Source: Actinomycetales bacterium (lineage in GTDB: Bacteria > Actinomycetota > Actinomycetes > Actinomycetales > Kineosporiaceae). From it: a DNA stretch of 64,000 nt. The stretch is taken from contig JAAYAH010000015.1 in assembly GCA_012719445.1 (NCBI GenBank), forward strand, positions 1 to 64,000, read 5' to 3'. Positions 5,685 to 64,000 of this stretch are shown in pieces. Position numbers and translations under genes: made by a program. The notes below the pieces were generated by a model, which worked only from the letters and a program-made list of their open reading frames with translations, searched no databases and was not told the origin of the DNA. Within the stretch, counting starts at the first letter, position 1; each line of letters begins with the position of its first letter.

Positions 5685-7571
5685 ATGGCGAGAACCCGTC
5701 GTGCCGTCCCCGCCGTCCTGCCGACAACGCACCGCACCACCCTTCCGGCCACCCGCCGCACCGCCCTTCCGGCCACCCGCCGCACCGCCCTTCCGGCCAC
5801 CCGCCGCGCCACCCGCTCGGCCGCCCGCCGCGCCCTTCCCGCAGCAGCCGTCGCCGTGGTCTCCCTCGTCGGGACCACCCTCGGCTCGACGGCGCCCGCG
5901 GGGGCGTCGTCGTCCGCCCCGGCCGTCACGCGCGTGGCCGGCTCCGTCGGCCCCGTCGGCTCCGCCCGGGCGGTGACGCCGGTGAGCACCGTCCGGCCGG
6001 TCGCCGGGCCGGTCGCCGTCCGTCGAGCGACCCAGGTGCACCAGCGCCGGGACACCGCCGGGATCCGGGTCGTTCCCGACGGACGGCTGGTCACGTCGGA
6101 ATGCCGTCCCGGGTCCTGCACCGTCGTCAGACGGCTGGGAACGGGCGACCGCCCGGGCACCCGGACCTGGCCGGGCACCGGGGGGCGGACACCGGTGACC
6201 TCGTTGCGGTTGATGAACTACCAGCCCTCGACCCACGGCTGGCCGCTGATGTGGACCGACTTCCGTCCCGCCGAGCTCTCAGCGGACTTCGCGAGGATCC
6301 GGGCGGCGAACGCCAACGCGGTCCGGCTCGCCGTCATCCCCGACACCTTCGGCTGGCCGACCCCGTCGGCGACGATGATGGATCGTCTGCGGACGGCCGT
6401 CGACCTGGCCGATCGACACGGCCTGTCGGTCCAGCTGACCCTGTTCGACTGGTGGGACCGCTACTGGCAGCACGAGGAGAGCCTGGTCTGGGCCGCCGCC
6501 GTGCTCCGGCCGTTCCGGGGCGACCCGAGAATCGCGCTCGTCGAGGTGCGGAACGAGGTCAACCCCTATGACCCGGCCGTGATCTCGTGGCTGAAGGTCG
6601 TCACCCCGCAGGTCCGCTCGTCCGCCCCCGGTGTCCCGGTGACGGCCTCGATCTCGACGACGCGCGGCACCGCGGCGCTGTCCAGGCTGCGCGCGGAGTT
6701 GGGCACCGGCGGGCTGGACGTCGCCGACATCCACTACTACGGAACGGCGGCAGGGGCCCGGAGGTGGCTCGCCGCCGCCCGGGCAGCGGCGGGGGACCTG
6801 CCCCTGGTCATCGGCGAGGCGGGGTACTCGATCAGCAACGAGGTGGACGCGGCCCGGCCGGTCGCCCACCGCGAGGAACTGCAGGCCGACTGGTACGACG
6901 CGGTCTTCCGGGCGGCCGGGGCCACCGGGGTCCGGGTCGTGGCGCCGTGGACCCTCAACGACTTCTCCGCCACGGCGATCCCGGGACTGACCCCTGACCG
7001 GGCACCGGAGGAGTACGCCTTCGGGCTGGTCCGGGCCGACGGATCGCGGCGCCCCGCCTTCGGCGTCGTCCGGGCCTGGTGGACGAGTCCTCCCGCGGCG
7101 GGCCTGGTCGCCGACTTCGACGACCCCGCCGACCGCGGGCTGCCGGCGGGCTGGACCGTCTCGTTCCAGGGCGGTGCCCGGGTGGCGACGGACAGCGCCG
7201 TCCGTCGCAGCATCCCGCAGAGCGTTGCGCTCGGCGCCACCGGCGGCACCGTCTCGGGTGTCCCCTGCCTCTCTCGCTACGTCGCCAACGCCCTGTCCCC
7301 TGCACAGGAGTGGACCGGGACGGCGTGGGTGCGCACCAGGGGCTCTGCCGGGACCGCGAGGATCTCCCTGAGCTGGTTCGACGCCGACGGGCGCTACCTG
7401 GGGCAGGTCGAGTCCGCGCGGGCGCCGAGGGGGACGACGTCCGGCTGGGTCCGGCTCGCGGTCACCGGGAGGGCGCCGAACGGGGCCGAGGTGCTGCGGG
7501 CGTACCTCAAGTCGGACAACGACCCGGGCACGGTGTGGTTCGACGACGTGACCGTCCGCCCCTCGGGCTGA
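5685..7571 (+). CDS. Secreted GH5-like glycoside hydrolase with C-terminal beta-sandwich
   Basis: The protein has 628 residues. The Arg-rich N-terminus is expanded by three copies of an 8-residue unit (residues about 20-43) before a hydrophobic export segment (about 50-70). The central TIM barrel has the clan-A pattern: acid/base Glu291 in EVRNEVN, an HYY motif on a later strand, and nucleophile Glu378 in VIGEAGYS. Residues about 475-625 look like a carbohydrate-binding beta-sandwich (LVADFDDP ... WFDDVTV). It would cut beta-glycosidic bonds outside the cell. The substrate is unknown, but position next to polysaccharide genes fits trimming of the product. It is monocistronic: a terminator lies before it and a long gap after it. 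Confidence 0.85.
   Translation: MARTRRAVPAVLPTTHRTTLPATRRTALPATRRTALPATRRATRSAARRALPAAAVAVVSLVGTTLGSTAPAGASSSAPAVTRVAGSVGPVGSARAVTPVSTVRPVAGPVAVRRATQVHQRRDTAGIRVVPDGRLVTSECRPGSCTVVRRLGTGDRPGTRTWPGTGGRTPVTSLRLMNYQPSTHGWPLMWTDFRPAELSADFARIRAANANAVRLAVIPDTFGWPTPSATMMDRLRTAVDLADRHGLSVQLTLFDWWDRYWQHEESLVWAAAVLRPFRGDPRIALVEVRNEVNPYDPAVISWLKVVTPQVRSSAPGVPVTASISTTRGTAALSRLRAELGTGGLDVADIHYYGTAAGARRWLAAARAAAGDLPLVIGEAGYSISNEVDAARPVAHREELQADWYDAVFRAAGATGVRVVAPWTLNDFSATAIPGLTPDRAPEEYAFGLVRADGSRRPAFGVVRAWWTSPPAAGLVADFDDPADRGLPAGWTVSFQGGARVATDSAVRRSIPQSVALGATGGTVSGVPCLSRYVANALSPAQEWTGTAWVRTRGSAGTARISLSWFDADGRYLGQVESARAPRGTTSGWVRLAVTGRAPNGAEVLRAYLKSDNDPGTVWFDDVTVRPSG
5742..5813 (+). repeat. Three 24-bp tandem repeats inside the GH5-like gene
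   Basis: The units are 5742-5765, 5766-5789 and 5790-5813, each beginning cttccggccacccgcc. The first two are identical. The period is a multiple of three, so frame is kept; each unit adds eight residues to the positively charged start of the signal region. Confidence 0.9.
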
Positions 7572-27526: not shown

Positions 27527-28552
27527 ATGGTCACGACGCGCAGGGTCGCCGTGGTGCGGGTCGTCATGGTGGTGCTGCTCGCCGTCCTGCCGGCGGCGCT
27601 CGTGTTCCCGTCGCCTCTCCTGCGCTCCGTCGCAAGCGAGGCGACGGGTGACCTGGCGTACCGAGTGCCCCCCACGGTGTCGGTCCTGCCCGAGGACGCG
27701 GACTGGGCCGCGCGTGCCTCGCCGATCCTGCGGGAGACGAGGACGCCCAGGGTCCTTCCGGCCGGGGGGTTCACCGGACGTCGGGTGGTGAGCCCGGCGG
27801 GGGAGCGCGCCCTGTGGGTCTGGGCGACGGGCGACCCGGCGTCCCTGCTGAGGCTCGCCTCCAGGAACGGTGTCACGACGCTCTACGTCTGGGTCTCGCC
27901 GGGATTCTCCAGGAGCCCCGCGACGATGACGCGGCTCACCGAGCTGTGCCGACTCGCCGCGGCGAGACGGCTCGCCGTCGACGCCCTCGGCGGCGATCCC
28001 TCGTGGGCCGTGCATCCCCAGCGGGCCGGTCGGTGGGCCGTGGAGGTGGCGAAGACCCGGCGGTTCCGGCGCCTGCACCTCGACGTCGAACCGCATGCCC
28101 TGGCCTCCTGGTCCGGGCACACCGGTGTGTTGTCGGCAGGGTTGATATCCGCGGTGGTGCACGCCAGGGCATCCGGGATGCCGGTGGACGTGGACATCCC
28201 CTACTGGTACTGGACGGTGCTGACGGCGTCCGGCGAGCCGCTCGACATCGGGATCATGCGTCGCGCGGACGCGATAACCGTCATGGCGTACCAGGACTCG
28301 TGGCGCAAGGTCGTCGCCGTGTCCCGGCCGGAGCTGTCCCGCGCGGCGATGCGGGGGGTCCGGGTGATCGTGGGTGTCAACATCCGGAGACCCAAGGGCG
28401 ATGCACCCCCGAGCAGCTACTGGGGGCGCTCGGCAGGGGAGATCGGCAGGGAGATCAGGATGATCGGTGCCGAACTGTCGCGGTCAACGGTCTTCGGCGG
28501 CATCGCGATCCACGATGCGGAGAGCCTGGCGCGGCTCGGGAGGCTCGGGTGA
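27527..28552 (+). CDS. Secreted TIM-barrel-like putative glycosidase, family member 1
   Basis: The protein has 341 residues. The signal peptide is residues 1-28 (RVVMVVLLAVLPAALVF). The mature part starts near LWVWATGDP, and its pattern of alternating strands (TTLYVWVSP, LAVDALGG, LHLDVEPHAL, VDIPYWYW, ITVMAYQDS, VIVGVNI) fits a TIM barrel. LDVEPH (Asp186, Glu188) and MAY (253-255) sit where GH18 enzymes carry DxE and MxY. I know no named family for it. Two homologues lie at 33989 and 35028. ATG 27527 follows GGGAGA. Next to a synthase gene, it probably trims or releases the nascent polymer. Confidence 0.72.
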   Translation: MVTTRRVAVVRVVMVVLLAVLPAALVFPSPLLRSVASEATGDLAYRVPPTVSVLPEDADWAARASPILRETRTPRVLPAGGFTGRRVVSPAGERALWVWATGDPASLLRLASRNGVTTLYVWVSPGFSRSPATMTRLTELCRLAAARRLAVDALGGDPSWAVHPQRAGRWAVEVAKTRRFRRLHLDVEPHALASWSGHTGVLSAGLISAVVHARASGMPVDVDIPYWYWTVLTASGEPLDIGIMRRADAITVMAYQDSWRKVVAVSRPELSRAAMRGVRVIVGVNIRRPKGDAPPSSYWGRSAGEIGREIRMIGAELSRSTVFGGIAIHDAESLARLGRLG

Positions 28553-33988: not shown

Positions 33989-35071
33989 ATGTTCCCCGGG
34001 GTACGAGCCAAGAACAACCTGCTGTTGGTTGGCGCTCTTGCTGCGGCGAGCCTGACTCTGACGGCAGACCAGGGGGACCCGTCGGAGGCGGACGTGCCTG
34101 ACATCGCACTGCCCCAGGGAATGCATGCGAGTGTCTACGAGTGGCGAGACCTGGCCGAGCTGGACGCGCAGCAGTCGGTGATCCGGCTCCGGGAGATGAA
34201 ACGTCGAGGATATGACGAGATCTTCATCGACGTCAGCAGGTACATGGATCTCATCGAGATGCCAGAGCCTCGACGTCGGACAGAGCTGACGCACTACCGG
34301 GACCAGCTGTCACGTTATATCGGCAGAGTGCGGGCCGTGGGTTTCTCGGTGCAGTTGCTTGCGGGGTTTCCGTCTCTGGCTCATCCTGACGTCTCCTATC
34401 TCGCACCCTCGATTCTGTCTCTCGCCGGCGAGCTGAACGCCGGTGCGACGGCACCGGGCCCTGTCGTCACCGGCGTCCAGTTCGACGTGGAGCCGTATCA
34501 GCTGCCGGAGTACGGGCGGTCTCCCGAGACAGTGGTGCGCTGGTACCTCGAGTTCGTCCGGACCGTGATCGAGGCACGAGGCGATCGAGCAACGGGGGAC
34601 CACGCCACCCTGGAGGTCGGCTTCGCCGTGCCGGTCTGGTTCGCCTCGTCGAGTCCGCCGTTGAGCTGGGACGGGGACGATCGTCATCCTCTGGGGCATC
34701 TGATGGCGTACCTCGGATCCCACGAGTCCACCTATCTCTCCGTCATGGCGTACCGCAACGAACTCTCCGGGGACGACGGCATCCTGGCGAAGGTGGATGA
34801 GTTCCTCGGTGAGGTGGACCCCGCATCGGGCCGCGTGAAGCTGACCGTGGCCCAGGAGGTGGGCAACGTGGAACCGTCGAAGATCACTCACTACGGCCTC
34901 GGGAATGCTCGACTCAGCAAGAACCTGGTCGGCATCTATGAGGCCTTCGGCGGCAGACGCGACTTCCGTGGAGTCGCCGTGAACGACTTCGACGGTCTGG
35001 AGTCCCTGGACGATCAGCCCGACTGTGTCAAGACATCACCCGGCGGTGACCTGAGTCGGCAGGTGTGCTGA
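33989..35071 (+). CDS. Secreted TIM-barrel-like putative glycosidase, family member 2
   Basis: The protein has 360 residues with a signal-like start (KNNLLLVGALAAASLTL). QFDVEPYQLPEYG places Asp166 and Glu168 as in the homologues, and VMAYRNE begins at residue 252. FIDVSRYMD and LEVGFAVPVW fit other barrel strands. It is the most divergent of the three related proteins, with a longer loop between the DxE and MAY motifs. ATG 33989 follows AGGGGA. Its last 44 bases overlap the end of the opposite-strand homologue, an unusual tail-to-tail arrangement. Confidence 0.72.
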   Translation: MFPGVRAKNNLLLVGALAAASLTLTADQGDPSEADVPDIALPQGMHASVYEWRDLAELDAQQSVIRLREMKRRGYDEIFIDVSRYMDLIEMPEPRRRTELTHYRDQLSRYIGRVRAVGFSVQLLAGFPSLAHPDVSYLAPSILSLAGELNAGATAPGPVVTGVQFDVEPYQLPEYGRSPETVVRWYLEFVRTVIEARGDRATGDHATLEVGFAVPVWFASSSPPLSWDGDDRHPLGHLMAYLGSHESTYLSVMAYRNELSGDDGILAKVDEFLGEVDPASGRVKLTVAQEVGNVEPSKITHYGLGNARLSKNLVGIYEAFGGRRDFRGVAVNDFDGLESLDDQPDCVKTSPGGDLSRQVC

Positions 35072-36074
35072 CCGCTCGGGGCCTCGTACTCAGGGTCTGG
35101 AGCCGTGCGAGGTACTCGGCGTCGTGGAGGGCGACGCCTCCGAATCCCGGCATGGTAGTGCCGGTGCTGGTGATCCTCGCCAGATCGGTGAAGACGGAGA
35201 CAGCGGTGGCCCCCCAGAGGGTGCTGGTCGGTTCCGTGGCGGAGGCCGGCCGGATGTTCACTCCGATCACTGCCCGTTTTCCGAGGGCGGCCGCGTGCCG
35301 CAGCTCCACGGCGGACACGGCGACAATTCTGCTCCAGGTGTTCTGATAGGCCATGATCGTCACCGAGTCCGCACGACGCATGACGGCGATGTCAAGGGTG
35401 TCCTTGGACAGGGTCGGTGTCTTCCAGTACCAGTGAGGTATGTCGACGTCGACAGGGAGACCGACCGACCTGACTCGCTGGACAGCCTGGACGAGACCGC
35501 TCGACAGGCGTTTCTGTCGCGTCGTCCAGTCGCCGAGCGTATAGGGCTCGATATCGAGGTGAATGCGTTCGAAGAAGCCCAGATCCCTGACCTCTTTTGC
35601 CCATGACTCGGCTCGCGAGGGATATGCGGCCCATGAGGGGCTGCCGCCAAGGGCATCCAGGTGGATTCCTTTGCTCCGGGCCCTCCGGGAGAGCTCTGCG
35701 AAGCGTGACATGAGTACGCGGTCGTTCCGCGAGCCCAGGGGGACCGACACGAGAAGGCGGTTGAATCCATGCCGGGAGGCGAGGGTGACGAGGGGTTCTG
35801 GTGTCCATCCACGCCAGACCCACAGCGACCGGACGGCGGTGGCCGGTACGGCAGGAGAAGTCGATGTCAGGCGCAGGTCACGATGTGACACGAGAGACGC
35901 CGGCGGCTGTTCCTGTGAGAATTGACCACCGTTCCCCGCTGATGACGGATAGGTGCTCGTCTGGGACGGGGAGCTGGCACTCAGAGACATGAGGGTGAGC
36001 GTGATGAGAGCGACGCCGGCGCCCACGCCGGGCAAAGAGCTTCTTCTGTGGTGTGTTCTCGCCGGGCATCGCAT
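35028..36074 (-). CDS. Secreted TIM-barrel-like putative glycosidase, family member 3
   Basis: The protein has 348 residues. ATG 36074 has a perfect GGAGGT 6 bases upstream. A signal peptide (about residues 15-35) and Ser/Thr/Gln-rich linker precede the barrel. SLWVWRGWTPEPLVTLASRHG aligns with member 1; HLDIEPYTL holds Asp174/Glu176 and IMAYQNTW begins with Met241, giving the same 67-residue spacing as member 1. VDVDIPHWYWK is nearly identical to member 1. It is encoded opposite to the rest of the module and overlaps member 2 at the 3-prime end. Confidence 0.75.
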   Translation of the reverse strand: MRCPARTHHRRSSLPGVGAGVALITLTLMSLSASSPSQTSTYPSSAGNGGQFSQEQPPASLVSHRDLRLTSTSPAVPATAVRSLWVWRGWTPEPLVTLASRHGFNRLLVSVPLGSRNDRVLMSRFAELSRRARSKGIHLDALGGSPSWAAYPSRAESWAKEVRDLGFFERIHLDIEPYTLGDWTTRQKRLSSGLVQAVQRVRSVGLPVDVDIPHWYWKTPTLSKDTLDIAVMRRADSVTIMAYQNTWSRIVAVSAVELRHAAALGKRAVIGVNIRPASATEPTSTLWGATAVSVFTDLARITSTGTTMPGFGGVALHDAEYLARLQTLSTRPRAVSTPADSGHRRVMS

Positions 36075-36879: not shown

Positions 36880-37347
36880 ATGTTCAAGCTGAGCAAGAAG
36901 TCCGTTGCTCTGTCCACCGCAGCTCTCGTCGTCGCCGGTGGCGTCGCCGCCTACGCCTGGTCGGTCAACGCGACCGGTACCGGTTACGCCAAGACCGACA
37001 CCACGCAGTCCATCACCTTCTCGAACGACACCCTGACCAAGCTCTGGCCCGGCACGGCGCAGCCCATCGGTGTCAAGTACGTCAGCACCAACCAGGGGAA
37101 CGTGGACGTGACGCTCGCCCCCCGGGTCACGTCCGTGAGGAAGGGCGGAGAGGACGTCTCCGCGCAGTGCCCGACGACCAACTTCTCGGTGACGCCCGCG
37201 ACGAAGACCCTCAACCTGGCCCCGACCGGAGAGGCCGGGCCCACGCCCGTCGGTGAGGGCAATGACCCGACACTCACCCTGGCTACAACCGCACCCAACG
37301 AGTGCCAGGGCGTCACGGTGACCATCAGCTACGCACCTGCCCTCTGA
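36880..37347 (+). CDS. Small exported Ig-like protein with SipW-type N-terminus
   Basis: The protein has 155 residues. It begins MFKLSKKSVALSTAALVVAG and continues VAAYAWSVNATGTG, the pattern of SipW-dependent-type signal peptides of TasA/camelysin-like proteins. The mature part is beta-rich with LWPGTAQPI, VSTNQGN and two cysteines, the second in ECQGVTVTISY. AGGGGGAA precedes ATG 36880. The first 16 residues nearly match the gene at 63613. It is the first gene of a four-gene operon, with a hairpin directly behind it that would make it the most expressed. Role as fibre or matrix subunit is inference. Confidence 0.8.
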   Translation: MFKLSKKSVALSTAALVVAGGVAAYAWSVNATGTGYAKTDTTQSITFSNDTLTKLWPGTAQPIGVKYVSTNQGNVDVTLAPRVTSVRKGGEDVSAQCPTTNFSVTPATKTLNLAPTGEAGPTPVGEGNDPTLTLATTAPNECQGVTVTISYAPAL

Positions 37348-37401: not shown

Positions 37402-37434
37402 GTGTTCGTTCACCCCCCGGGAAAGGGCCACCGG

Positions 37435-37953
37435 ATGGCAGCGACGCGTCGACTGTTCGCCCTCGCGCGGCTGGCACTCCCCCTCGTCGTCGTCGGCGGG
37501 GCAGCGCTGTCCCTGGCCGGGGAGGGGACGGACCGGGCGATCCCTGTGGGCGCCCAGACCCTGGGGCAGCACGGCCAGCCCGTTGCGAGTAGCGGGAACG
37601 CCCCGCACAGTGATCTCGTCGTCAGCGGTTCGGTCCAGGACCTCTGGCCAGGGGTGGCCGGCTCCCTCAACCTGACCGTCACCAACGTCGGCCACCGGCC
37701 GATCCGGCTGCTGACGCTGGGTGCCGTCGCCGAGGGTCCGCACGGCTGCACCGCCTCGGAGAATCTGCGGATCAGCGCGTACGACGCGTCCGTGCCGGGA
37801 GCCGGGCAGTACCTGATCAAGAGTGGTAGCAGCGTGGTGGTCCCCCTGCAGGTCACCCTGCTCGACCTCCCCGAGAACCAGAGGTTCTGCGAGGGAGCGA
37901 CGTTCCGGCTGACCTACCACGGCTCCGCCGAGGGTATGCGGGGCAGGCCGTGA
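37435..37953 (+). CDS. Small exported Ig-like protein, paralogue 2
   Basis: The protein has 172 residues with an export signal (LFALARLALPLVVVGGAAL). The mature part repeats the layout of the first gene: LWPGVAGSL, then TVTNVGHRPI, a first cysteine in HGCTAS, and a closing FCEGATFRLTYHG. ATG 37435 follows GGGAAAGGG. The stop overlaps the next GTG (GTGA). The SipW-like AxAxW motif of its neighbours is missing here, so it may be processed by the general signal peptidase. Confidence 0.78.
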   Translation: MAATRRLFALARLALPLVVVGGAALSLAGEGTDRAIPVGAQTLGQHGQPVASSGNAPHSDLVVSGSVQDLWPGVAGSLNLTVTNVGHRPIRLLTLGAVAEGPHGCTASENLRISAYDASVPGAGQYLIKSGSSVVVPLQVTLLDLPENQRFCEGATFRLTYHGSAEGMRGRP

Positions 37954-38435
37954 GGCCGCCGGGTCGGTCGGGTCGCCGGGGCGACTGGGGACCGAGGCGG
38001 GCCGTCACCGCGGCAGGGATCGGGCTGCTCGCCGTCACCGTCGGGGGAGCCGCCCTCGCCCTCTGGACGAGCTCGGGCACCGGGACGGGCTCGGGGACCA
38101 CGGCATCGCTCACCCTGACCGGGGAGACGACCACCTCCGGGCTCCTGGCTCCCGGCGCGACGTCCGTCGTCCACCTCACCCTGACGAACCCCAACCCGGG
38201 AGAGATCACGATCGTCGCGCTCACCGGGGGGACGGCGCGGATCGCGGAGTCGGGCAGTGGTTCCTGCGATCCGGCCGCGGTCACGTTCGTGCCCCGGGCC
38301 GACCTCACCGTGCCCGTTCCGGCCGGCGGCTCCGTCGTGGTGGACGGGGTGGTGTCCATGAGCACCGAGGCCGCCGACGGCTGTCAGGGGGCCACGTTCA
38401 CCGTGCCGGTGACCGCAAGGGCGGAGACGTCATGA
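37950..38435 (+). CDS. Small exported Ig-like protein, paralogue 3
   Basis: The protein has 161 residues. A basic start (RSGRRGDWGPRRAV) leads into GLLAVTVGGAALALWTSSGTG, matching the AxAxW(T/S)xxG pattern of the first gene. The mature part contains LAPGATSVVHLTLTNPNPG, a cysteine in GSCDPA and the closing DGCQGATFTVPV. GTG 37950 overlaps the previous stop and ATGA overlaps the next start, so translation of the three downstream genes is coupled. Confidence 0.78.
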   Translation: MRPPGRSGRRGDWGPRRAVTAAGIGLLAVTVGGAALALWTSSGTGTGSGTTASLTLTGETTTSGLLAPGATSVVHLTLTNPNPGEITIVALTGGTARIAESGSGSCDPAAVTFVPRADLTVPVPAGGSVVVDGVVSMSTEAADGCQGATFTVPVTARAETS

Positions 38436-54359: not shown

Positions 54360-55142
54360 TCAGGCGCTGCGGACGGCGTCGGATCCGGTGGGCAGCACGG
54401 TGGGCAGCACGGTCCGCGGCTCGGTGTCCACCCCGGTGCCCGGCCTGGCCACACCGGTGGCCGCCCCAGCTGCCCCGTCGGTCGTCTTCCGGGCTGCCGC
54501 ACGCTCGGCGTCGCCGTCCATGCCCCGGTACCGGACCTGGGCGAAGCTGCCGGCGCGCGAGACCAGCCGCGCGGGGATGCCCAGGACGACCCCGCGGGGC
54601 GGCACGTCCCGGACGACCACGCTGTTGGCGCCCACCGCGGCGTCCGCCCCGACCGTCAGCCCGCCGGCGACCACGGCTCCCGGGCCGATCCACACCCGGT
54701 CCTCCAGGACCGGGGTCGCCCACCGTGAGGGGTCCTCCTCGGTGGTGCTGTGCCCGAGGGTCACCCCCTGGGAGACGCAGCAGTGCCGGCCGATCCGCAC
54801 CGGGCCGATGACGATGTACCCGCTGTGCGGGATGAGCAGTCCGGGGCCGATGTGCGCGTGGGGGTCGATCTCGATCCCGGTGCGGGTGAGCACCATCCGC
54901 TGGCCGAGTTGGTTGAGGAGCCCGATCGCCGTGCCCAACGCCCTGGGGCGCAGACGGGTGTAGGCGTGGTGGGCGAACCGGTACCCGAGCACCGCCCACA
55001 GGCCGGGGGAGAGGACCAGGGCGCGGACCAGAGCCAGCAGGCCGTGCCTGCCGTCACGCTCCACCTCGAACACGTACCGGTCCACGTCCTGACGAACGGT
55101 GCGCCACAGCCCCGCCCCCTCGCATCCGCACGGTGCCGGCAT
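54360..55142 (-). CDS. Serine-acetyltransferase-like hexapeptide acetyltransferase
   Basis: The protein has 260 residues from ATG 55142, which follows a good AGGAGGGAC. A helical N-terminal half (DVDRYVFEVERDGRHG, LSPGLWAVLGYRFAHHAY) precedes a left-handed beta-helix of hexapeptide repeats: GIEIDPHAHIGPGLLIPHSG, IGRHCCVSQGVTLGHS, VWIGPGAVVAGGLTVGADA, VGANSVVV. The layout is that of CysE-type enzymes, which in polysaccharide loci often acetylate sugars instead of serine. The C-terminal 60 residues are disordered. It lies 61 bases before the beta-helix gene on the same strand. Confidence 0.85.
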   Translation of the reverse strand: MPAPCGCEGAGLWRTVRQDVDRYVFEVERDGRHGLLALVRALVLSPGLWAVLGYRFAHHAYTRLRPRALGTAIGLLNQLGQRMVLTRTGIEIDPHAHIGPGLLIPHSGYIVIGPVRIGRHCCVSQGVTLGHSTTEEDPSRWATPVLEDRVWIGPGAVVAGGLTVGADAAVGANSVVVRDVPPRGVVLGIPARLVSRAGSFAQVRYRGMDGDAERAAARKTTDGAAGAATGVARPGTGVDTEPRTVLPTVLPTGSDAVRSA

Positions 55143-55785: not shown

Positions 55786-56055
55786 GTGGAAGCCCGGATC
55801 CGTGCGGAACTCACCCGATTCATCGTCTCGAACTTCCTTTTCGGGGACGCGGCGCGGGTTCCCGGGGACGAGGATTCCCTGGTCGAGGGAGGGGTCATCG
55901 ACTCGACCGGCGTCCTCGAGCTCATCGAGTTCCTCGAGACGACGTTCGGTATCGAGGTCTCGGAGACGGAGACCGTGCCCGCGAATCTCGACAGCATCGC
56001 CAACCTCACCCGGTTCGTCCTCGCCAAGCAGGCCGGCGTCACCGTCGGCGCCTGA
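55786..56055 (+). CDS. Acyl carrier protein
   Basis: The protein has 89 residues from GTG 55786, which has GGGG 5 bases upstream; in-frame starts at 55735/55738 would add 16-17 residues. The four-helix carrier layout is plain: EARIRAELTRFIVSNFL, then GGVIDSTGVLELIEFLETTF with the phosphopantetheine serine Ser40 in DST, and NLTRFVLAKQ. It is acidic and soluble. AcpS encoded nearby would load it and the ligase 50 bases downstream would acylate it. Confidence 0.88.
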   Translation: MEARIRAELTRFIVSNFLFGDAARVPGDEDSLVEGGVIDSTGVLELIEFLETTFGIEVSETETVPANLDSIANLTRFVLAKQAGVTVGA

Positions 56056-56105
56056 CCGCGCAGCGGCGTCCGGTTCGCCGTCCGTCTCGTCCCGGGGGGG
56101 GTCCC

Positions 56106-57830
56106 ATGCGTGAGGCCGTGACGGCCACCAGTCCCACCACGATGTGCTGCACCAGCGACTACCTGCTCGCCGCGGGGGCGCCGGACGACATTGCGGTGGT
56201 CGACGGCGGCAGCCGCCACACCTACGCGGAGCTGCGCTTCGCCGCGGCGCGTCTCGCCGGTGAGCTCTCCGCCCTCGCCCTGCCGGCCGGCTCCCGGGTG
56301 GGGATCCTCGGCCCGAACTCCCTCTTCTGGATCGCGGGCTACCTCGCCGTGCTGAGGCTCGGTCACGTCGCCGTCCCGTTCCCGGACCGGCTCCCCGCCG
56401 ACGACCTGCGCCGCAACGCCGAGCTCGTTGGCTGCCGGGCCGTCCTCGCCGACCGGCGGTCCCTGCGCCGGTATCCCACCGCAGCTCTCGGCCCCGGGAC
56501 GGCGATCGTCACCGACGAGGCGCTGGTGCGGGACGGCGGAACCTGCCGGCCCGAGGGGACGGTCGTCGACCCCGACGCCGACGCGGTGCTCCTGTTCACT
56601 TCGGGCACCACGTCCCGGCCCAAGGCCGTGCGGATCACGCACCGGAACATCCGGGCCAACACCGAGGCCATCGTCGAGTACCTCGGGCTCCGTCCCGACG
56701 ACCGGGTGCTGGTGATCCTGCCCTTCTCCTACTGCTTCGGCGCGTCGCTGCTGCACACCCACCTCCGGGTGGGGGCCCGGGTCGTCCTGTGCAACTCCTT
56801 CGTCTTCCCGGAGACCGCCGTCGAGCTGATGGACCGGGAGGAGTGCACGGTCTTCGCCGGCGTCCCCTCCTCGTTCCAGCTGCTGCTGCGGGCCGGCAGC
56901 TTCGCCTCCCGGGAGCTGCCGTCGCTGCGGATCGTCCAGCAGGCCGGTGGACGGCTCCCCGAGCCGCTCATCGACGAGCTCGTCGCGGCGAAACCCCGGG
57001 CGGAGCTCTTCGTCATGTACGGCCAGACCGAGGCCACCGCGCGGCTCTCCTACCTGCCGCCGCGCCTGCTCGCCGAGAAGAAGGGCTCGATCGGCAGGGG
57101 GATCCCCGGGGTCGAGCTGCTCGTCCTCGACGAGCAGGGCCGGCGGGTGCGACCGGGGGAGCAGGGCGAGATCTACGCGCGGGGCGCCAGCATCTCCCCC
57201 GGGTATCTCGGGGACCCCGACGGATCGGCGTCGAAGCTCACCCCGCACGGTCTGCGCACGGGCGATCTCGGCACCGTCGACGAGGACGGGTACGTCTACG
57301 TCACCGGCCGCAGGGACGACTTCGTCAAGTCCTGGGGATTCCGGGTCTCGTGCCCCGAGGTCGAGGCCTGCGTGCAGGGCCTGGACGGCGTCACCGCGGT
57401 GGCCGCGGTCGGGGTTCCCGACGATGCGGCGGGCGAGGCTCTCGTCCTCGTCGTCGTCCCGCGTCCGGGGACGGTGCTCCTGCCCGGGACGGTCGTCGCG
57501 CACTGCGCCGGCCGGTTGCCGAAGCACATGGTGCCGCGGGCGGTGCGCATCGTCGACGCGCTGCCGCTCACCCCGTCCGGGAAGGTGTCCCGTCCTGCGC
57601 TCCGGGAGCTGGTCCGCTCCGGTGACGAGGCGACGGGGGACCCGCAGCCGCGGCGGCATCGGCCGGGCCCGGTCGGCCGTCAGACCCCACCCGTCCACCA
57701 GGACCAGCCCGCCCGTCGGGAACCACCCGGTCGTCAGGACCAGTCCCGCCCCCGGGTCCGCTCACTGCAGGACCCCGTCCGTCTGGAGGAGACGTCGGAA
57801 CATGACCACCCGATCCCGTCACCGCGGTAG
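56106..57830 (+). CDS. AMP-dependent acyl (or aminoacyl) ligase
   Basis: The protein has 574 residues of the ANL superfamily. Phosphate-binding FTSGTTSRPK (Thr165-Lys173), YGQTEA near 304, hinge TGDLGTVDEDGYVYVTGR and C-terminal catalytic Lys493 in TPSGKVSR are all present. It adenylates an acid and passes it to a thiol, most likely the neighbouring carrier protein. The last 70 residues are Pro/Arg/Gln repeats. Its end overlaps the lipoprotein gene by 29 bases. Substrate unknown. Confidence 0.88.
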   Translation: MREAVTATSPTTMCCTSDYLLAAGAPDDIAVVDGGSRHTYAELRFAAARLAGELSALALPAGSRVGILGPNSLFWIAGYLAVLRLGHVAVPFPDRLPADDLRRNAELVGCRAVLADRRSLRRYPTAALGPGTAIVTDEALVRDGGTCRPEGTVVDPDADAVLLFTSGTTSRPKAVRITHRNIRANTEAIVEYLGLRPDDRVLVILPFSYCFGASLLHTHLRVGARVVLCNSFVFPETAVELMDREECTVFAGVPSSFQLLLRAGSFASRELPSLRIVQQAGGRLPEPLIDELVAAKPRAELFVMYGQTEATARLSYLPPRLLAEKKGSIGRGIPGVELLVLDEQGRRVRPGEQGEIYARGASISPGYLGDPDGSASKLTPHGLRTGDLGTVDEDGYVYVTGRRDDFVKSWGFRVSCPEVEACVQGLDGVTAVAAVGVPDDAAGEALVLVVVPRPGTVLLPGTVVAHCAGRLPKHMVPRAVRIVDALPLTPSGKVSRPALRELVRSGDEATGDPQPRRHRPGPVGRQTPPVHQDQPARREPPGRQDQSRPRVRSLQDPVRLEETSEHDHPIPSPR

Positions 57831-58716
57831 GCACCCCCTGCGCGCGATGACCGCATTCGCGATCATGACCGCTGCTCTCGGGGCAGTGGCGTCCTGCGGC
57901 AGCGAGGAGCAGCCCGTGACCCGACAGAGCACCCCGTCGGCCTCCCCGACGGCGACCGCCTCCCCGACGACGAGCCCGGAGGACACCGGTCGGGTCGGCG
58001 ACGACGTGACGGAGGCCGACCTGAGGAAGGTCGCCGCGACCCGGGTGTTCTTCGGCCACCAGTCGGTCGGTCAGAACGTGCTCGACGGGATCCCGGAGGT
58101 GTTCACCGCGAAGGGCGTTCCGGTGCCGCCCGTCGAGCAGGACACCAGCGAGCCCGGTCCGGACGGGGGGTTCGTCTCCCACTCCTTCATCGGTCAGAAC
58201 GAGGACCCGGTCTCGAAGATCCAGGCGTTCGACGCCGCCGTGCGCGCGGGTCTCGGCAAGAAGATCGACGTCGCCATGATGAAGTTCTGCTACGTCGACG
58301 TCGTCGGCGGGACGGACGTCGACGCCCTGTTCACGGCCTACAGCGACACCATGGACGCCCTGGGCCGGGACTTCCCCGAGGTGACCTTCGTCGCCGTGAC
58401 CGTCCCGCTGACCACCCAGCCCGGCCTGTTGAAGAAGATCAGGACGGGGGGCAGCGGCGGCCGGGACGAGAACGTGGCCAGGCAGCGGCTCAACGAGCTC
58501 ATCCGGCAGCGGTACACCGGACGGCAGCTCTTCGACCTCGCCGCCGTCGAGTCCACGACGGCGGAGGGTGTCCGGGTGGCCGGGGCGTACAAGGGCCAGG
58601 AGTACTACGCGTTGCACGAGGGCTTCGCCTCCGACAACGGGCACCTCAACGCCGACGGGTCGCGCAGGGCGGCGACCGAGTGGCTGCGGGTCGTCGCGCT
58701 GGCGTCCCAGAAGTGA
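57802..58716 (+). CDS. SGNH-hydrolase-like lipoprotein
   Basis: The protein has 304 residues. A lipobox (GAVASC, cysteine near residue 33) and a Ser/Thr/Pro linker show a membrane-attached extracytoplasmic protein. FFGHQSVGQNV carries a GHQS motif with Ser88 where SGNH esterases have their nucleophile, and DNGHLNADG gives His281 at the C-terminal block. VAMMKFCYVD and FVAVTVPLTT fit the core strands. It could remove or transfer acyl groups on the secreted product. The assignment rests on motifs only. Confidence 0.72.
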   Translation: MTTRSRHRGRHPLRAMTAFAIMTAALGAVASCGSEEQPVTRQSTPSASPTATASPTTSPEDTGRVGDDVTEADLRKVAATRVFFGHQSVGQNVLDGIPEVFTAKGVPVPPVEQDTSEPGPDGGFVSHSFIGQNEDPVSKIQAFDAAVRAGLGKKIDVAMMKFCYVDVVGGTDVDALFTAYSDTMDALGRDFPEVTFVAVTVPLTTQPGLLKKIRTGGSGGRDENVARQRLNELIRQRYTGRQLFDLAAVESTTAEGVRVAGAYKGQEYYALHEGFASDNGHLNADGSRRAATEWLRVVALASQK

Positions 58717-58738
58717 CCACGTCGCGGACCCGGCACCG

Positions 58739-59185
58739 GTGAGCACCGGACCCGACGGCACAGAACCCGGTCGCACAGAACTCAACGGTGCGGGATCCGG
58801 CCGGACGGGACTCGGCACGGACATCGTCTCCGTCGCCCGGTTCACCCGGCTGGCGCGCACCGGCGGTCCGGCCTTCCTGGAACGGTGGTTCACCCCCGCG
58901 GAGATCGACTACTGCTCCGGGAAGGCCGAGCCCGGCCGTCACCTCGCCGCCCGGTTCGCCGCCAAGGAGGCGGTCGTCAAGGCACTGCCGGGGCCGTGGG
59001 ACGGCCCGCTGCCGTGGCGCCGCATCGAGATCGTCAACGACGCGCGAGGAGCGCCCTCGGTCCGCCTCGACGGGGCCGTCCGGGAGGCGGCGCGACGCGC
59101 GGGAGTCAGGGAGGTCCAGGTGTCGTTGTCCCACTGCGACGAGTACGCCACCGCCGTCGCGCTGTGCACGGCCGGGGAGGCGTGA
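58739..59185 (+). CDS. acpS: Holo-acyl-carrier-protein synthase
   Basis: The protein has 148 residues. A 25-residue Gly/Thr/Glu tail precedes GLGTDIVSVARF, and RFAAKEAVVKAL is the catalytic metal-binding motif of AcpS; VSLSHCDEYATAVAL closes the fold. It transfers 4-prime-phosphopantetheine from CoA to the serine of carrier proteins, most likely the one at 55786. GTG 58739 lies 22 bases after the lipoprotein gene. A second AcpS outside the primary fatty-acid locus would suit a dedicated pathway. Confidence 0.92.
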   Translation: MSTGPDGTEPGRTELNGAGSGRTGLGTDIVSVARFTRLARTGGPAFLERWFTPAEIDYCSGKAEPGRHLAARFAAKEAVVKALPGPWDGPLPWRRIEIVNDARGAPSVRLDGAVREAARRAGVREVQVSLSHCDEYATAVALCTAGEA

Positions 59186-59188
59186 CCG

Positions 59189-59413
59189 GTGGTGCCCGAC
59201 CGCGTCACCTCCCGCCGGGTCACCCGGCTGCTCCGTGACCACGCGGCCGCGCGGCGTCCAGGCACCGACCCGGTCCTGGAGTCGATCGCGACCGCCGTCC
59301 TCGTCGAGGAGGTCTTCGACATCACCCTCACCGACGACGAGATCGACCCGGTGCTGCTCGACGACCCGGCGGCGGTCACCGCGCTCGTCCGCAGGCACGG
59401 AGGGACGCCCTGA
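59189..59413 (+). CDS. Carrier-protein-like small protein lacking the modification serine
   Basis: The protein has 74 residues and is helical and acidic: RVTRLLRDHAAARRPG, LESIATAVLVEEVFDITLTD, DDPAAVTALVRRH. Size and helix pattern follow an acyl carrier protein, with VEEVFDITL where carriers have EEEFGIEI, but the DSL position reads DPVLE, so no serine is available for phosphopantetheine. It starts 3 bases after acpS and overlaps the asparagine synthase start (TGATG). It may bind the amidotransferase or carrier as a structural partner. Confidence 0.68.
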   Translation: MVPDRVTSRRVTRLLRDHAAARRPGTDPVLESIATAVLVEEVFDITLTDDEIDPVLLDDPAAVTALVRRHGGTP

Positions 59414-61491
59414 TGTGCGGCATCTGCGGGATCGTCAGCTACCGCACCACCCCGGCGCTCGACCTGCTGCGGAGGATGACCGGCCGGCTCGTCCACCGCG
59501 GCCCGGACGGGAACGGCTACTACCGCGACCGCCGGGCCGCCCTCGGGCACACCCGGCTGGCGGTCGTCGACACGGTCGGCGGCGCGCAGCCGCTGTGCAA
59601 CGAGGACGGCACGGTCTGGGTGACCTTCAACGGGGAGGTCTTCAACCACGTCGAGCTCGGCGTCGAGCTGCGGAGGCTGGGGCACCGGTTCCGGACGGCG
59701 AGCGACACCGAGGTGATCGTGCACGCCTGGGAGGAGTGGGGCGAGGAGTGCTTCTCCCGGTTCAACGGGCAGTGGGCGCTGGCGATCTGGGACCGACGCG
59801 AGGAGCGGCTGGTCCTGTCCCGGGACCGGCTGGGCGTGCGGCCGCTGTACTACGCCCGTACCGCGCAGGGGCTGGTCTTCGCCTCCGAGGTCAAAGCGCT
59901 GTTCGCCGACCCGGCGGTGCCCCGCGAGCTCGACCCGGTGGGCCTGGACCAGACGTTCACCTACTGGTCGACCGTCGCGCCGCGCACGGTGTTCCGGGGC
60001 GTCGAGCAGCTCGAGCCCGGCCACCTCGCGGTCCTCGACCGGGACGGCCTGCGGCGGAGGGCCTACTGGCGGCCGTCGTTCCCGGCCAGGGGACAGGAGC
60101 CCCACCGCGACACTCGGGAGAACGCGGAGGCGCTGCGCGAGCGGCTGGTCGAGGCGGTCCGGCTGCGCTTCCTGCGCAGTGACGTCCCGGTGGGGGCGTA
60201 CCTGTCCGGCGGGATCGACTCGGCCGTCACGACCGCGGTGATCTCCCGCCACACCGACGTGCCGCTGCACACGTTCTCGTTGCGGTTCGCCGACGCGGAG
60301 TTCGACGAGGGCCGGTACCAGCGGAGCATGGCCGAGCGGCTGGGCACCCGGCACGAGGACGTCGTGGTCAGCGCCTCGGACATCGCGGAGGTCTTCCCCG
60401 AGGTGATCCGGCACACCGAGACGCCGGTGCTCCGGGCCGCCCCGGCGCCCATGTTCCTGCTGTCCCGGCTGGTGCGGGACAGCGGCTACAAGGTGGTGGT
60501 GACCGGGGAGGGGGCCGACGAGGTCCTGGCCGGGTACGACCTCTTCCGGGAGGCCCGGGTCCGGCTGTTCTGGTCCCGCGACCCCGGTTCCGCCACCCGG
60601 GCGCGGGCCGCCGAACTGCTCTACCCGTGGATGGCCCGCTCGCCCGGACGGATGCCCGCCTTCGCCCGCACCTTCTTCGGCCGCAACCTCGACCCCGACG
60701 ACCCGGCCCTGTCGCACCGGCCGCGCTGGGACTCGACATCGATGATCAAGAGGATGCTGTCGGCGGACCTGGCGGCCCGGCTGCACCGGTCCCAGCCGGA
60801 CGGTGTCGTCGCCGCGATGCCGCCGGCCAGCGGTGGCTGGGACCCGCTGAGCCGGGCGCAGTGGCTGGAGCTGACCACGCTGCTGCCCGGCTACCTCCTC
60901 TCCTCGCAGGGCGACCGGATGCTCATGGCCAACTCCGTCGAGGGCCGGTTCCCCTTCCTCGACCCTGACGTCGTGGACTTCGCCGCCGCACTGCCCGCCC
61001 AGGACAAGCTGTTCGGCCTGGAGGAGAAGTACCTGCTCAAGCGGGCCTTCGCCGACCTCGTCCCGGCGTCGATCCGGCACCGCCCCAAGCAGCCGTACCG
61101 GGCTCCCGACGCCGCGAGCTTCTTCACCGGCGAGAGGGCCGACTGGCTCGGCGAGGTCACCTCCCCGCGGGCACTGGCCGCGGCCGGGGTGTTCGACCCG
61201 GCACCGGTTGCCGGCCTGCTGGCCAAGTGCGAGCGCACCCGGGGCCGCGGCACCGGCAACAGCGACAACATGCGTCTCCTCGCGGTGATCTCGACGCAAC
61301 TGGTGCACCGGCTGTTCGTCGCGGGTGACGCCGCCGCCTTCGACCGGGTGCTGCCGGAGCCCGGCGTGGCCGTCGACCTCGTCGCCGAGGGGACGGCCGA
61401 CCGCACCGTCGACCTGGCGGCCCGGGACGCCGCCGGCTCACCGCTCGATCCGGCGGCACGCGACGTCGCCGATCTCCACCCGACCCGGTGA
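59413..61491 (+). CDS. asnB: Glutamine-hydrolysing asparagine synthase-like amidotransferase
   Basis: The protein has 692 residues. The glutaminase domain begins MCGICGIVSY (catalytic Cys2) with LVHRGPDGNG and FNGEVFNH; the synthetase domain has the ATP loop SGGIDSA at Ser265 and VTGEGADEVLAGY. C-terminal NSVEGRFPFLD and KQPYRAPD are also typical. It is longer than usual by a 60-residue Asp/Ala/Arg tail. In polysaccharide and carrier-protein loci such enzymes amidate carboxyl groups other than aspartate, which may be the case here. Confidence 0.9.
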   Translation: MCGICGIVSYRTTPALDLLRRMTGRLVHRGPDGNGYYRDRRAALGHTRLAVVDTVGGAQPLCNEDGTVWVTFNGEVFNHVELGVELRRLGHRFRTASDTEVIVHAWEEWGEECFSRFNGQWALAIWDRREERLVLSRDRLGVRPLYYARTAQGLVFASEVKALFADPAVPRELDPVGLDQTFTYWSTVAPRTVFRGVEQLEPGHLAVLDRDGLRRRAYWRPSFPARGQEPHRDTRENAEALRERLVEAVRLRFLRSDVPVGAYLSGGIDSAVTTAVISRHTDVPLHTFSLRFADAEFDEGRYQRSMAERLGTRHEDVVVSASDIAEVFPEVIRHTETPVLRAAPAPMFLLSRLVRDSGYKVVVTGEGADEVLAGYDLFREARVRLFWSRDPGSATRARAAELLYPWMARSPGRMPAFARTFFGRNLDPDDPALSHRPRWDSTSMIKRMLSADLAARLHRSQPDGVVAAMPPASGGWDPLSRAQWLELTTLLPGYLLSSQGDRMLMANSVEGRFPFLDPDVVDFAAALPAQDKLFGLEEKYLLKRAFADLVPASIRHRPKQPYRAPDAASFFTGERADWLGEVTSPRALAAAGVFDPAPVAGLLAKCERTRGRGTGNSDNMRLLAVISTQLVHRLFVAGDAAAFDRVLPEPGVAVDLVAEGTADRTVDLAARDAAGSPLDPAARDVADLHPTR

Positions 61492-61548
61492 CCGGCCGCG
61501 GTCGTTCCTGTCCGCAGCCGATCTCGTTACTGACGATGGGAGCTCCTC

Positions 61549-62559
61549 ATGAAGACCTCGGTTCGCTTCGGGCCGGAGACGCTGCGGATCGACGGTGAGC
61601 GGGAGGTCGCCGCGATCTCGGCGAACCTGACCGCCTACCTGGCTCGGTCGCGGCGCCGCGGGGTGGTGGTGGCGCTGTCGGGCGGCATCGACTCCAGCGT
61701 GGTGGCCGCGGTGTGCGTCGCGGCGCTGGGCGCCGACCGGGTATTCGGGGTGCACATGCCCGAGCGGGAGTCCTCGCCGGAGACCCTGGGCCTGAGCCGG
61801 CTGGTGGCGGACTCGTTGGGGATCGACTCGGTGGTGGAGGAGATCACGCCGGTGCTGGACGCGGTGGGGTGCTACCGGCGCCGGGACGACGCGATCCGGA
61901 CGGTGTGCCCGGACTACGGGTCCGGGTACCGGTCGAAGATCGTGCTGCCGAGCGTCATCGACTCCGACAGCTACCGGCTGTACTCGGTGGTGGTGCTGGC
62001 CCCGGACGGGTCGCAGACCTCCCACCGGCTGCCCCGGGAGGCGTACCTGGGGGTCGTCGCGGCGACGAACTTCAAGCAGCGGGTGCGCAAGATGCTGGAG
62101 TACCACCACGCCGACCGGTTGAACTACGTGGTGTCCGGGACGCCGAACCGGCTGGAGTACGACCAGGGGTTCTTCGTGAAGCTGGGCGACGGGGCCGCGG
62201 ACGTGAAGCCGATCGCGCACCTGTACAAGTCGCAGGTGTACGCGCTCGCGGAGCACCTGGGGGTGCCGGAGGAGATCCGGTCCCGGCCGTCGACGACGGA
62301 CACCTACTCGCTGCCGCAGTCGCAGGAGGAGTTCTACTTCTCGCTGCCGCACCAGCGGATGGACCTGTGCCTGTACGGCCGGAACAACGGGGTGCCGGTC
62401 GAGGACGTCGCCGAGGCCACCGGCCTGACGGTGGACCAGGTGCAGCGGGTGTACCGGGACATCGAGCAGAAGCGCCGGACGACGAGCTACCTGCACCTGG
62501 CACCGGAGCTCGCCGTGGACGTCCCCGAGATCCACCAGCACGCCGCCCCGCGGGGCTGA
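61549..62559 (+). CDS. NAD-synthase-like ATP-pyrophosphatase
   Basis: The protein has 336 residues of the adenine-nucleotide alpha-hydrolase fold. ALSGGIDSSVVAA (P-loop at residues 44-50), GTPNRLEYDQGFFVKLGDGA and PIAHLYKSQVYALAEHLGVP are clear NadE signatures. A 60-residue insert (about 105-165, SGYRSKIVLPSVIDSDSYRL) and an altered C-terminus (PQSQEEFYFSLPHQRMDLCL in place of the usual PGQTDE-type segment) set it apart from NadE. No glutaminase domain; ammonia could come from the neighbouring AsnB. ATG 61549 follows GGAG. Confidence 0.85.
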   Translation: MKTSVRFGPETLRIDGEREVAAISANLTAYLARSRRRGVVVALSGGIDSSVVAAVCVAALGADRVFGVHMPERESSPETLGLSRLVADSLGIDSVVEEITPVLDAVGCYRRRDDAIRTVCPDYGSGYRSKIVLPSVIDSDSYRLYSVVVLAPDGSQTSHRLPREAYLGVVAATNFKQRVRKMLEYHHADRLNYVVSGTPNRLEYDQGFFVKLGDGAADVKPIAHLYKSQVYALAEHLGVPEEIRSRPSTTDTYSLPQSQEEFYFSLPHQRMDLCLYGRNNGVPVEDVAEATGLTVDQVQRVYRDIEQKRRTTSYLHLAPELAVDVPEIHQHAAPRG

Positions 62560-63612: not shown

Positions 63613-64000
63613 ATGTTCAAGCCGAGCAAGAAGTCCATCGTCGTGGGGGGAGCCGCCCTCCTGCTCATCGGAACCGGCACCGCCTACGCCTACTGGACCG
63701 TCACCGGGAGCGGCTCGTCGTCGGCCCAGACCACCACCGCCGGGACGCTCACGGTGGTGGCGGGCGCTCCGGTCACCGGTCTCGAGCCCGGCGGCTCGGC
63801 GAAGCTCGTCAGCGGGACCTTCACCTACTCCAGCACCACGAAGGTCTACGTCAAGAGCGTCGTCGTCCAGGTCGACCCCACCTTCTCGACCCAGGAGAAC
63901 CCGGACCTGCCGGCCTGCACGGCAGCCGACTTCGAGACCAGCAACGCCCCGGTCTTCACCAGGGTCGGGACCGGCGACACCTGGGGCGGTGCCAGCATCA
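63613..64000 (+). CDS. Small exported protein with SipW-type N-terminus (partial)
   Basis: The frame runs from ATG 63613 to the window edge, 129 codons seen. MFKPSKKSIVVGGAALLLIG and TAYAYWTVTGSGSSS match the N-terminus of the protein at 36880, and the DNA around the start codon (tcccttcatgttcaag) is identical in both. LEPGGSAKLVSGTFTY aligns with the LxPG segment of the paralogues; a cysteine lies in LPACTAAD. GAGGGAGAG precedes the start. It probably opens a second copy of the 36.9-40.3 kb operon beyond the window. Confidence 0.82.
   Translation, partial: MFKPSKKSIVVGGAALLLIGTGTAYAYWTVTGSGSSSAQTTTAGTLTVVAGAPVTGLEPGGSAKLVSGTFTYSSTTKVYVKSVVVQVDPTFSTQENPDLPACTAADFETSNAPVFTRVGTGDTWGGASI

Follow-up and report, generated by a model that had tools for sequence, protein, structure and literature searches.

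What could a carrier protein, an adenylate-forming ligase, an asparagine synthase homologue and an NAD-synthase-like enzyme be making together? The question is raised by a gene set at positions 55786-62559 of a 64,000-nucleotide stretch (the window) of contig JAAYAH010000015.1, from an Actinomycetales bacterium of the family Kineosporiaceae (assembly GCA_012719445.1). A preliminary description of this DNA had listed seven genes in one direction, encoding an acyl carrier protein (ACP), a ligase of the ANL superfamily, an SGNH-like lipoprotein, the phosphopantetheinyl transferase AcpS, a serine-less carrier-like protein, an asparagine synthase (AsnB) and a NadE-like protein. All seven were found on the plus strand in this order, and the list of parts was upheld by family scans, alignments and fold prediction.

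Conservation of the cassette across bacterial phyla

When species genomes were searched with the NadE-like protein, 272 relatives were identified, and the locus counts given here come from the best 80. Judged by record titles and by the phyla read for the tree, these represent Actinomycetota, Planctomycetota, Acidobacteriota, Verrucomicrobiota, Pseudomonadota, Spirochaetota, Deinococcota, Nitrospirota, Myxococcota and Thermodesulfobacteriota, as well as the candidate division KSB1. Genes in these loci were called with a simple caller, and partners were detected by profile searches of six-frame translations. Within 10 kb of the NadE-like gene, AsnB was identified in 75, the ANL ligase in 68 and the ACP in 63 of the 80 loci, many of which are cut by contig ends; the profiles were partly built from the same loci and are thus biased towards finding members. 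The 46 actinobacterial loci account for 45, 39 and 42 of these occurrences, and the 34 non-actinobacterial loci for 30, 29 and 21, respectively. Counts from tblastn alone are close to the profile counts, the serine-less carrier excepted, and among the 51 loci of at least 19 kb tblastn detected AsnB in 49, the ACP in 46 and the ligase in 44. As a control, the same profiles were run on 16 neighbourhoods of ordinary NadE genes, which together span 271 kb (three are shorter than 8 kb) and belong to genomes of the set itself. They yielded nothing, and a chance grouping of the cassette genes was rejected on this control.

Gene order is conserved as well: in 43 of the 46 actinobacterial loci the NadE-like gene directly follows AsnB in the same orientation, and in 25 of the 34 others the two genes share a same-strand run. 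All four core genes were also present in each of seven additional loci (two from Sinorhizobium meliloti, one each from Mesorhizobium, Shinella and Azospirillum, and two from other genomes). Five of the seven are plasmid loci, taken from 117 matching records, and the other two stem from genome scans of the order and the phylum. The operons of Sinorhizobium, Mesorhizobium and Shinella consist of exactly four genes, asnB-acp-ligase-nadE, and this bare form defines AsnB, ACP, ANL ligase and NadE-like protein as the core of the cassette. In Actinobacteria the core is joined by AcpS, the degenerate carrier and the SGNH lipoprotein, and in many cases by a hexapeptide acyltransferase as well. Close to home the cassette is rare: among 198 genomes of the order and among 296 genomes of a phylum sample it was present in two each, one of them being the genome of the window.

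The preliminary description had proposed a neighbourhood search for co-occurrence of the NadE-like protein with AsnB and the serine-less carrier, and would have been contradicted by a lack of conserved linkage in other genomes. The linkage with AsnB proved to be conserved (75/80 loci versus 0/16 controls), and the core is linked across the 80 loci and in all seven additional ones. Co-occurrence with the serine-less carrier holds within Actinobacteria (34/46 loci by profile search) but hardly elsewhere (3/34). The gene set almost certainly represents a dedicated and conserved pathway. No description of the AsnB-ACP-ANL-NadE set was found in the open-licence literature, a search that leaves subscription papers uncovered, and the cassette is real, conserved and apparently undescribed. 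A phenotype in S. meliloti was sought by locus tags that are possibly wrong, and nothing was found; viral carriage of the cassette was also looked for, with none found.

Glycan context and proposed function

The placement of the set in a polysaccharide locus, made in the preliminary description, is borne out by the glycan genes that surround the cassette in many relatives and in the window itself, where they encode glycosyltransferases, a flippase-like protein, two polysaccharide deacetylases and two UDP-sugar dehydrogenases. In a census based on Pfam scans of the nearest non-core neighbours, with 25 families listed per set, the 136 actinobacterial neighbours included, among the families listed, GT2 (13), Polysacc_synt_3 flippases (10), sugar transferase (5), WecG (4) and O-antigen ligase (4). 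The families listed for the 121 neighbours from other phyla included epimerase (6), exosortase (5), UDP-sugar dehydrogenase (4), Polysacc_synt_2 (4) and Antibiotic_NAT (3). For the 126 control neighbours the sole glycan-type family among the 25 listed was UDP-sugar dehydrogenase (2), although smaller counts may be hidden.

The contents of three of the loci (L056, L066 and L079) bear on the origin of the acid. An AAC(3)-like acyltransferase stands beside the set in all three, together with SDR and dehydratase-like acyl-building enzymes; a KASIII-like enzyme is present in L056 and L066, and the ANL ligase is absent from L066 and L079. These contents suggest that the acid may be either loaded or built, with AsnB, ACP and the NadE-like protein remaining constant. 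They thereby favour, short of proof, a role for the cassette in handling acyl groups attached to a carrier, or in a step adjacent to this. A link of the cassette to glycans is moderately supported, and the chances that a surface glycan serves as the acceptor appear evenly balanced. The leading explanation, though still tentative, is that an acyl (or aminoacyl) group bearing an amide is assembled on a carrier by the cassette and destined for a surface glycan, the window holding the actinobacterial version of an old cassette shared across phyla. The preliminary reading, in which the set may decorate a glycan with an acyl or amide group, is partly supported.

Several observations weigh against this proposal. 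The NadE-like protein scores 141 bits against the NAD synthase equivalog TIGR00552, well above the cut-off of 64. The sole full AsnB found in the genome of the window is that of the cassette, which might therefore also make asparagine. An ACP was not found near the NadE-like gene in 17 of the 80 loci, some of them on short contigs. As to the bare rhizobial operons, none contains an acyltransferase; in Sinorhizobium no glycan-making gene was seen in 25 kb. Within the stretches covered, Mesorhizobium has a glycosyltransferase gene on the opposite strand, some 3 kb downstream, and Shinella has one about 4 kb upstream. Given the rhizobial operons without an acyltransferase and the Sinorhizobium stretch without a glycan gene, a glycan role may not be general.

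The bare operons would be readily accommodated if the cassette made a free small molecule, such as an osmolyte, a signal or another amide, and its glycan neighbours were incidental or a later adaptation. A planctomycete locus (L051), where the set stands beside an argininosuccinate-synthase-like gene and other non-glycan genes (named by reading), points the same way, as does the capacity of AsnB-type enzymes to make the osmolyte dipeptide amide of TIGR03104, a family that the cassette AsnB matches at 374 bits (cut-off 570). However, glycosyltransferase, flippase, sugar transferase and exosortase are frequent neighbours of the cassette and are all missing from the control families listed, and the surface SGNH lipoprotein is encoded within 10 kb in 37 of the 46 actinobacterial and 8 of the 34 other loci, so that a free product seems rather unlikely.

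Kinship with exosortase-associated systems and parallels in amide-forming pathways

The best NCBIfam match of the ANL ligase is TIGR03098 (ligase_PEP_1), at 304 bits with a cut-off of 592, nearly equalled by a long-chain ligase family at 303 bits; for the S. meliloti ligase TIGR03098 is clearly first (457 versus 393). The last ~70 residues of the window ligase are of low complexity, and a search of the ligase conservation pattern for the acid substrate led to no assignment. AsnB combines a glutaminase domain with an N-terminal Cys and a synthetase domain, and its second-best match is TIGR03108 (446.7 bits, cut-off 816.9). The preliminary description had considered that the genes might belong to a known pathway, and the answer is divided: both the ligase and AsnB have their closest named families in exosortase-associated exopolysaccharide systems, but score below the family cut-offs.

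This kinship allows the cassette to be viewed as a branch of the exosortase/PEP-CTERM exopolysaccharide module, in which the NadE-like protein has replaced the decarboxylase and a sugar modified with an amino acid or an acyl group is formed. TIGR03098 and TIGR03108 being the best or near-best NCBIfam matches of ligase and AsnB is consistent with such a descent, and so are a locus (L021) in which AsnB-NadE is followed within a few genes by a true TIGR03098 ligase (727 bits) and a true TIGR03099 decarboxylase (567 bits), another (L082) with exosortase W (555.9 bits) directly after the operon and TIGR03006 before it, and the presence of an exosortase beside the set in 5 of the 34 non-actinobacterial loci (L054, L064, L068, L069 and L082). 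Besides the missed cut-offs, the distribution of exosortases argues against it, as the genome of the window has no match to PF09721 and no exosortase was detected in 13 of 29 tested non-actinobacterial genomes, and this explanation is considered doubtful. The exosortase A module (TIGR03098, TIGR03099, TIGR03108 and a carrier) and the cassette have in common an ANL ligase, a carrier and an AsnB-type enzyme in exopolysaccharide loci, whereas the cassette includes the NadE-like protein and usually lacks a decarboxylase.

In five actinobacterial polysaccharide loci (L019, L020, L021, L027 and L034) a decarboxylase gene lies between a ligase and a second ACP, adjoining AsnB-NadE; in L021 this ligase and this decarboxylase are the true TIGR03098 and TIGR03099 proteins. 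Exosortases with an extra N-terminal part of ~300 residues are encoded in L068 (13058-14899), L069 (11850-13784) and L054 (7255-9120), and in L054 this part resembles sugar nucleotidyltransferases.

Other systems offer partial parallels to the proposed formation of amides on carrier-bound acyl groups. According to the accessible part of one report, a surface sugar acquires its uronamide only with the help of WbpS-type enzymes, which are assigned there to TIGR03108, deletion of the amidotransferase in Porphyromonas gingivalis leads to loss of the uronamide, and amino-acid-modified sugars were suggested for exosortase systems (PMC7468200). The uronic-acid amidotransferases of the WbpS/WbqG type thus share with the cassette an AsnB-type enzyme in a surface-glycan locus, but the available portion of that report does not mention ACP, ANL ligase or NadE-like protein (PMC7468200), to all three of which the cassette AsnB is fixed. 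An AsnB homologue was proposed to amidate a malonyl group on ACP in the biosynthesis of glutarimide antibiotics, as stated in the accessible part of PMC7756379. As far as that portion goes, malonamyl-ACP starter pathways resemble the cassette in an AsnB homologue, a discrete ACP and a loading enzyme; however, those pathways load through an acyltransferase and continue with a polyketide synthase, whereas the cassette has an ANL ligase for loading and no ketosynthase among its seven genes. In the accessible parts of papers on floc formation, at most an asparagine synthase gene is found beside glycan genes (PMC4784049, PMC9850573), and the clusters in the available portion of PMC5183585 are distinct from the cassette.

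The NadE-like protein as a paralogue of NAD synthase

The genome of the window contains a separate NadE (224.8 bits), and a further NadE is present in 26 of 27 genomes of relatives, 20 of these scoring above the TIGR00552 cut-off and six at 29-63 bits, one of which is a contig-end fragment; only in the genome of L071 was no further NadE found. Hence the NadE-like protein need not supply the cell with NAD. When the NadE-like family was aligned to 16 NadE proteins from genomes of relatives, 21 of 31 NadE-conserved columns were found to be kept, including the shared PP-loop adenylation core, four carry another fixed residue (positions 210, 250, 252 and 260 of the window protein) and six are variable. 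The whole P-loop, Ser-Gly-Gly-x-Asp-Ser, is retained in 65 of 65 NadE-like proteins, with S44, G45, G46, D48 and S49 the same as in all 16 NadE proteins. Unlike NadE, the NadE-like family has an insertion of ~50 residues before position 172, with its own conserved consensus, and it combines this and the four exchanged positions with the status of a second copy and with fixed partners. Since the adenylating machinery is intact and the substrate-facing region has changed in a fixed way, the protein may act on a new substrate, and as judged from its sequence it very probably does not serve NAD synthesis. An ordinary extra NAD synthase in an accidental grouping would account for the equivalog match and the kept adenylation residues, but it is highly improbable in view of the separate NadE in the same genome and in 26 of the 27 others, the fixed exchanges and insertion, and a linkage that extends over about ten phyla versus 0/16 controls.

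In a tree of the 65 NadE-like proteins the actinobacterial ones group at 100/100, including that of L041. The latter belongs to a record titled Spirochaetes and carries an actinobacterial-type cassette at 70% identity, owing to either transfer or misbinning. The planctomycete locus L054 has two NadE-like genes (1485-2444 and 6100-7092), one of them very divergent, with 45% identity to the window protein and the longest branch of the tree. In Gordonia alkaliphila (L073) the NadE-like match spans residues 83-331 only, with no partner genes within 10 kb, and it is possibly a decaying remnant.

Gene set in the window and actinobacterial additions

The seven genes (Table 1) are closely spaced, with overlaps of at most 29 bp and gaps of at most 57 bp, and the stop codon of the carrier-like gene overlaps the AsnB start by one base.

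Table 1. Genes of the cassette and the divergent acyltransferase gene in the window
Gene	Coordinates	Strand	Remarks
ACP	55786-56055	+	GTG start; longer ORF starting 55735
ANL-superfamily adenylate-forming ligase	56106-57830	+	Pfam AMP-binding 256 bits, AMP-binding_C 67 bits
SGNH-fold lipoprotein	57802-58716 (start 57802 or 57847)	+	Lipobox-like VASC; fold model
AcpS-type phosphopantetheinyl transferase	~58739-59185	+	Pfam ACPS 66.8 bits
Serine-less carrier-like protein	59189-59413	+	hhalign to ACP family; carrier-type helical model
AsnB-type glutamine amidotransferase	59413-61491	+	TIGR01536 502 bits, cut-off 267
NadE-like PP-loop enzyme	61549-62559	+	NCBIfam NF002048 505 bits, cut-off 313
Hexapeptide (left-handed beta-helix) acyltransferase, CysE/EpsC-like	54360-55085	-	Divergent from ACP gene

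The hexapeptide acyltransferase was overlooked in the preliminary description. It matches Pfam Hexapep at 42.7 bits and NF041874 (EpsC) at 110 bits, under the cut-off of 150 for the latter, and is counted in the set because its relatives often adjoin the ACP gene in other loci, which makes it a probable member of the cassette in Actinobacteria.

The ACP is under every NCBIfam cut-off (best match NF052616, 44.9 bits), and its phosphopantetheine Ser40, in a D-S-T motif, is kept in 38 of 38 homologues. AcpS is a second genome copy, the other being on contig C178, and was detected near the NadE-like gene by tblastn in 40 of the 46 actinobacterial and 2 of the 34 other loci. The carrier-like protein was rightly called serine-less, as none of 27 homologues has Ser at the attachment column. 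Profile comparison points to kinship with the ACP family (hhalign, 92.6%, E 4.7e-7), and its predicted model is helical and of carrier type in appearance, with carriers leading the Foldseek list at weak E values of at least 0.6. By tblastn alone it was identified in 21 of the 46 actinobacterial and none of the 34 other loci, and its near restriction to Actinobacteria marks it as an accessory component outside the core.

For the SGNH lipoprotein no family match was obtained in Pfam or NCBIfam scans, and its assignment was confirmed by the predicted fold and the catalytic residues. The AlphaFold2 model (pLDDT 87) aligns with SGNH esterases at Z 14-16 over ~175-190 residues, and its Foldseek matches include the peptidoglycan O-acetyltransferase PatB and sialate esterases. 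Block I reads GHxS instead of GDS, with the catalytic Ser and the DxxH motif present; Ser73 and Asp263 are each conserved in 45 of 46 homologues and His266 in 44 of 46. The protein is probably located outside the cytoplasm.

The ligase, the carrier and the SGNH-fold protein resemble DltA, DltC and DltD in kind, and one MBOAT is encoded in the same genome, yet a Dlt-like route in which an MBOAT moves the carrier-bound acyl group across the membrane and the SGNH protein hands it on is scarcely credible and was rejected, since that MBOAT lies on another contig, 23 of 27 genomes of relatives have none and the other four have none near the cassette, and AsnB and the NadE-like protein lack Dlt counterparts.

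Elsewhere in the window, two small secreted proteins with very similar starts (MFKLSKKS.. and MFKPSKKS..) are encoded on either side of the cluster at 36880-37347 and 63613-64000, the former adjoining other small secreted proteins (37402-38435). Two secreted proteins that appear by eye to be paralogues (27527-28552 on the plus strand and 35028-36074 on the minus strand) flank a UDP-sugar dehydrogenase and a glycosyltransferase of the glycan locus.

Proposed mechanism and implications

If the cassette indeed builds an amide-bearing group for a surface glycan, its outline would be to load, amidate and transfer, an SGNH step outside the cell being added in Actinobacteria and in certain Planctomycetes. 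From the families of its members, the ligase would adenylate an acid and load it onto the ACP, whose priming could be carried out by the AcpS of the cassette itself. AsnB, with glutamine, and the NadE-like protein, with ATP and ammonia or an amine, would then form amides from carboxylates, either those of the acid on the carrier or those of the sugar that receives it. Transfer of the completed acyl or aminoacyl group to a sugar, one belonging to the surface polysaccharide of the adjoining locus, would fall to an acyltransferase, probably the hexapeptide protein in this case and a GNAT or AAC(3)-like enzyme elsewhere, and the SGNH lipoprotein may trim or move the group after export.

PP-loop enzymes make amidines in acetamidino sugars. 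It is conceivable, if unlikely, that the NAD synthase fold has been recruited to act after AsnB on a carrier-bound or carrier-derived substrate, converting a carboxylate to a carboxamide and possibly further to an amidine, in which case surface glycans would bear an amidated or amidino acyl group.

Annotation of the individual genes as NAD(+) synthase, acyl-CoA ligase, ACP and asparagine synthase hides a conserved four-enzyme pathway, the compact operon of which occurs in genetically tractable rhizobia. The cassette may explain part of the chemistry of exosortase-linked exopolysaccharides and, if the proposed function is true, would reveal a role of the NAD synthase fold that is new.

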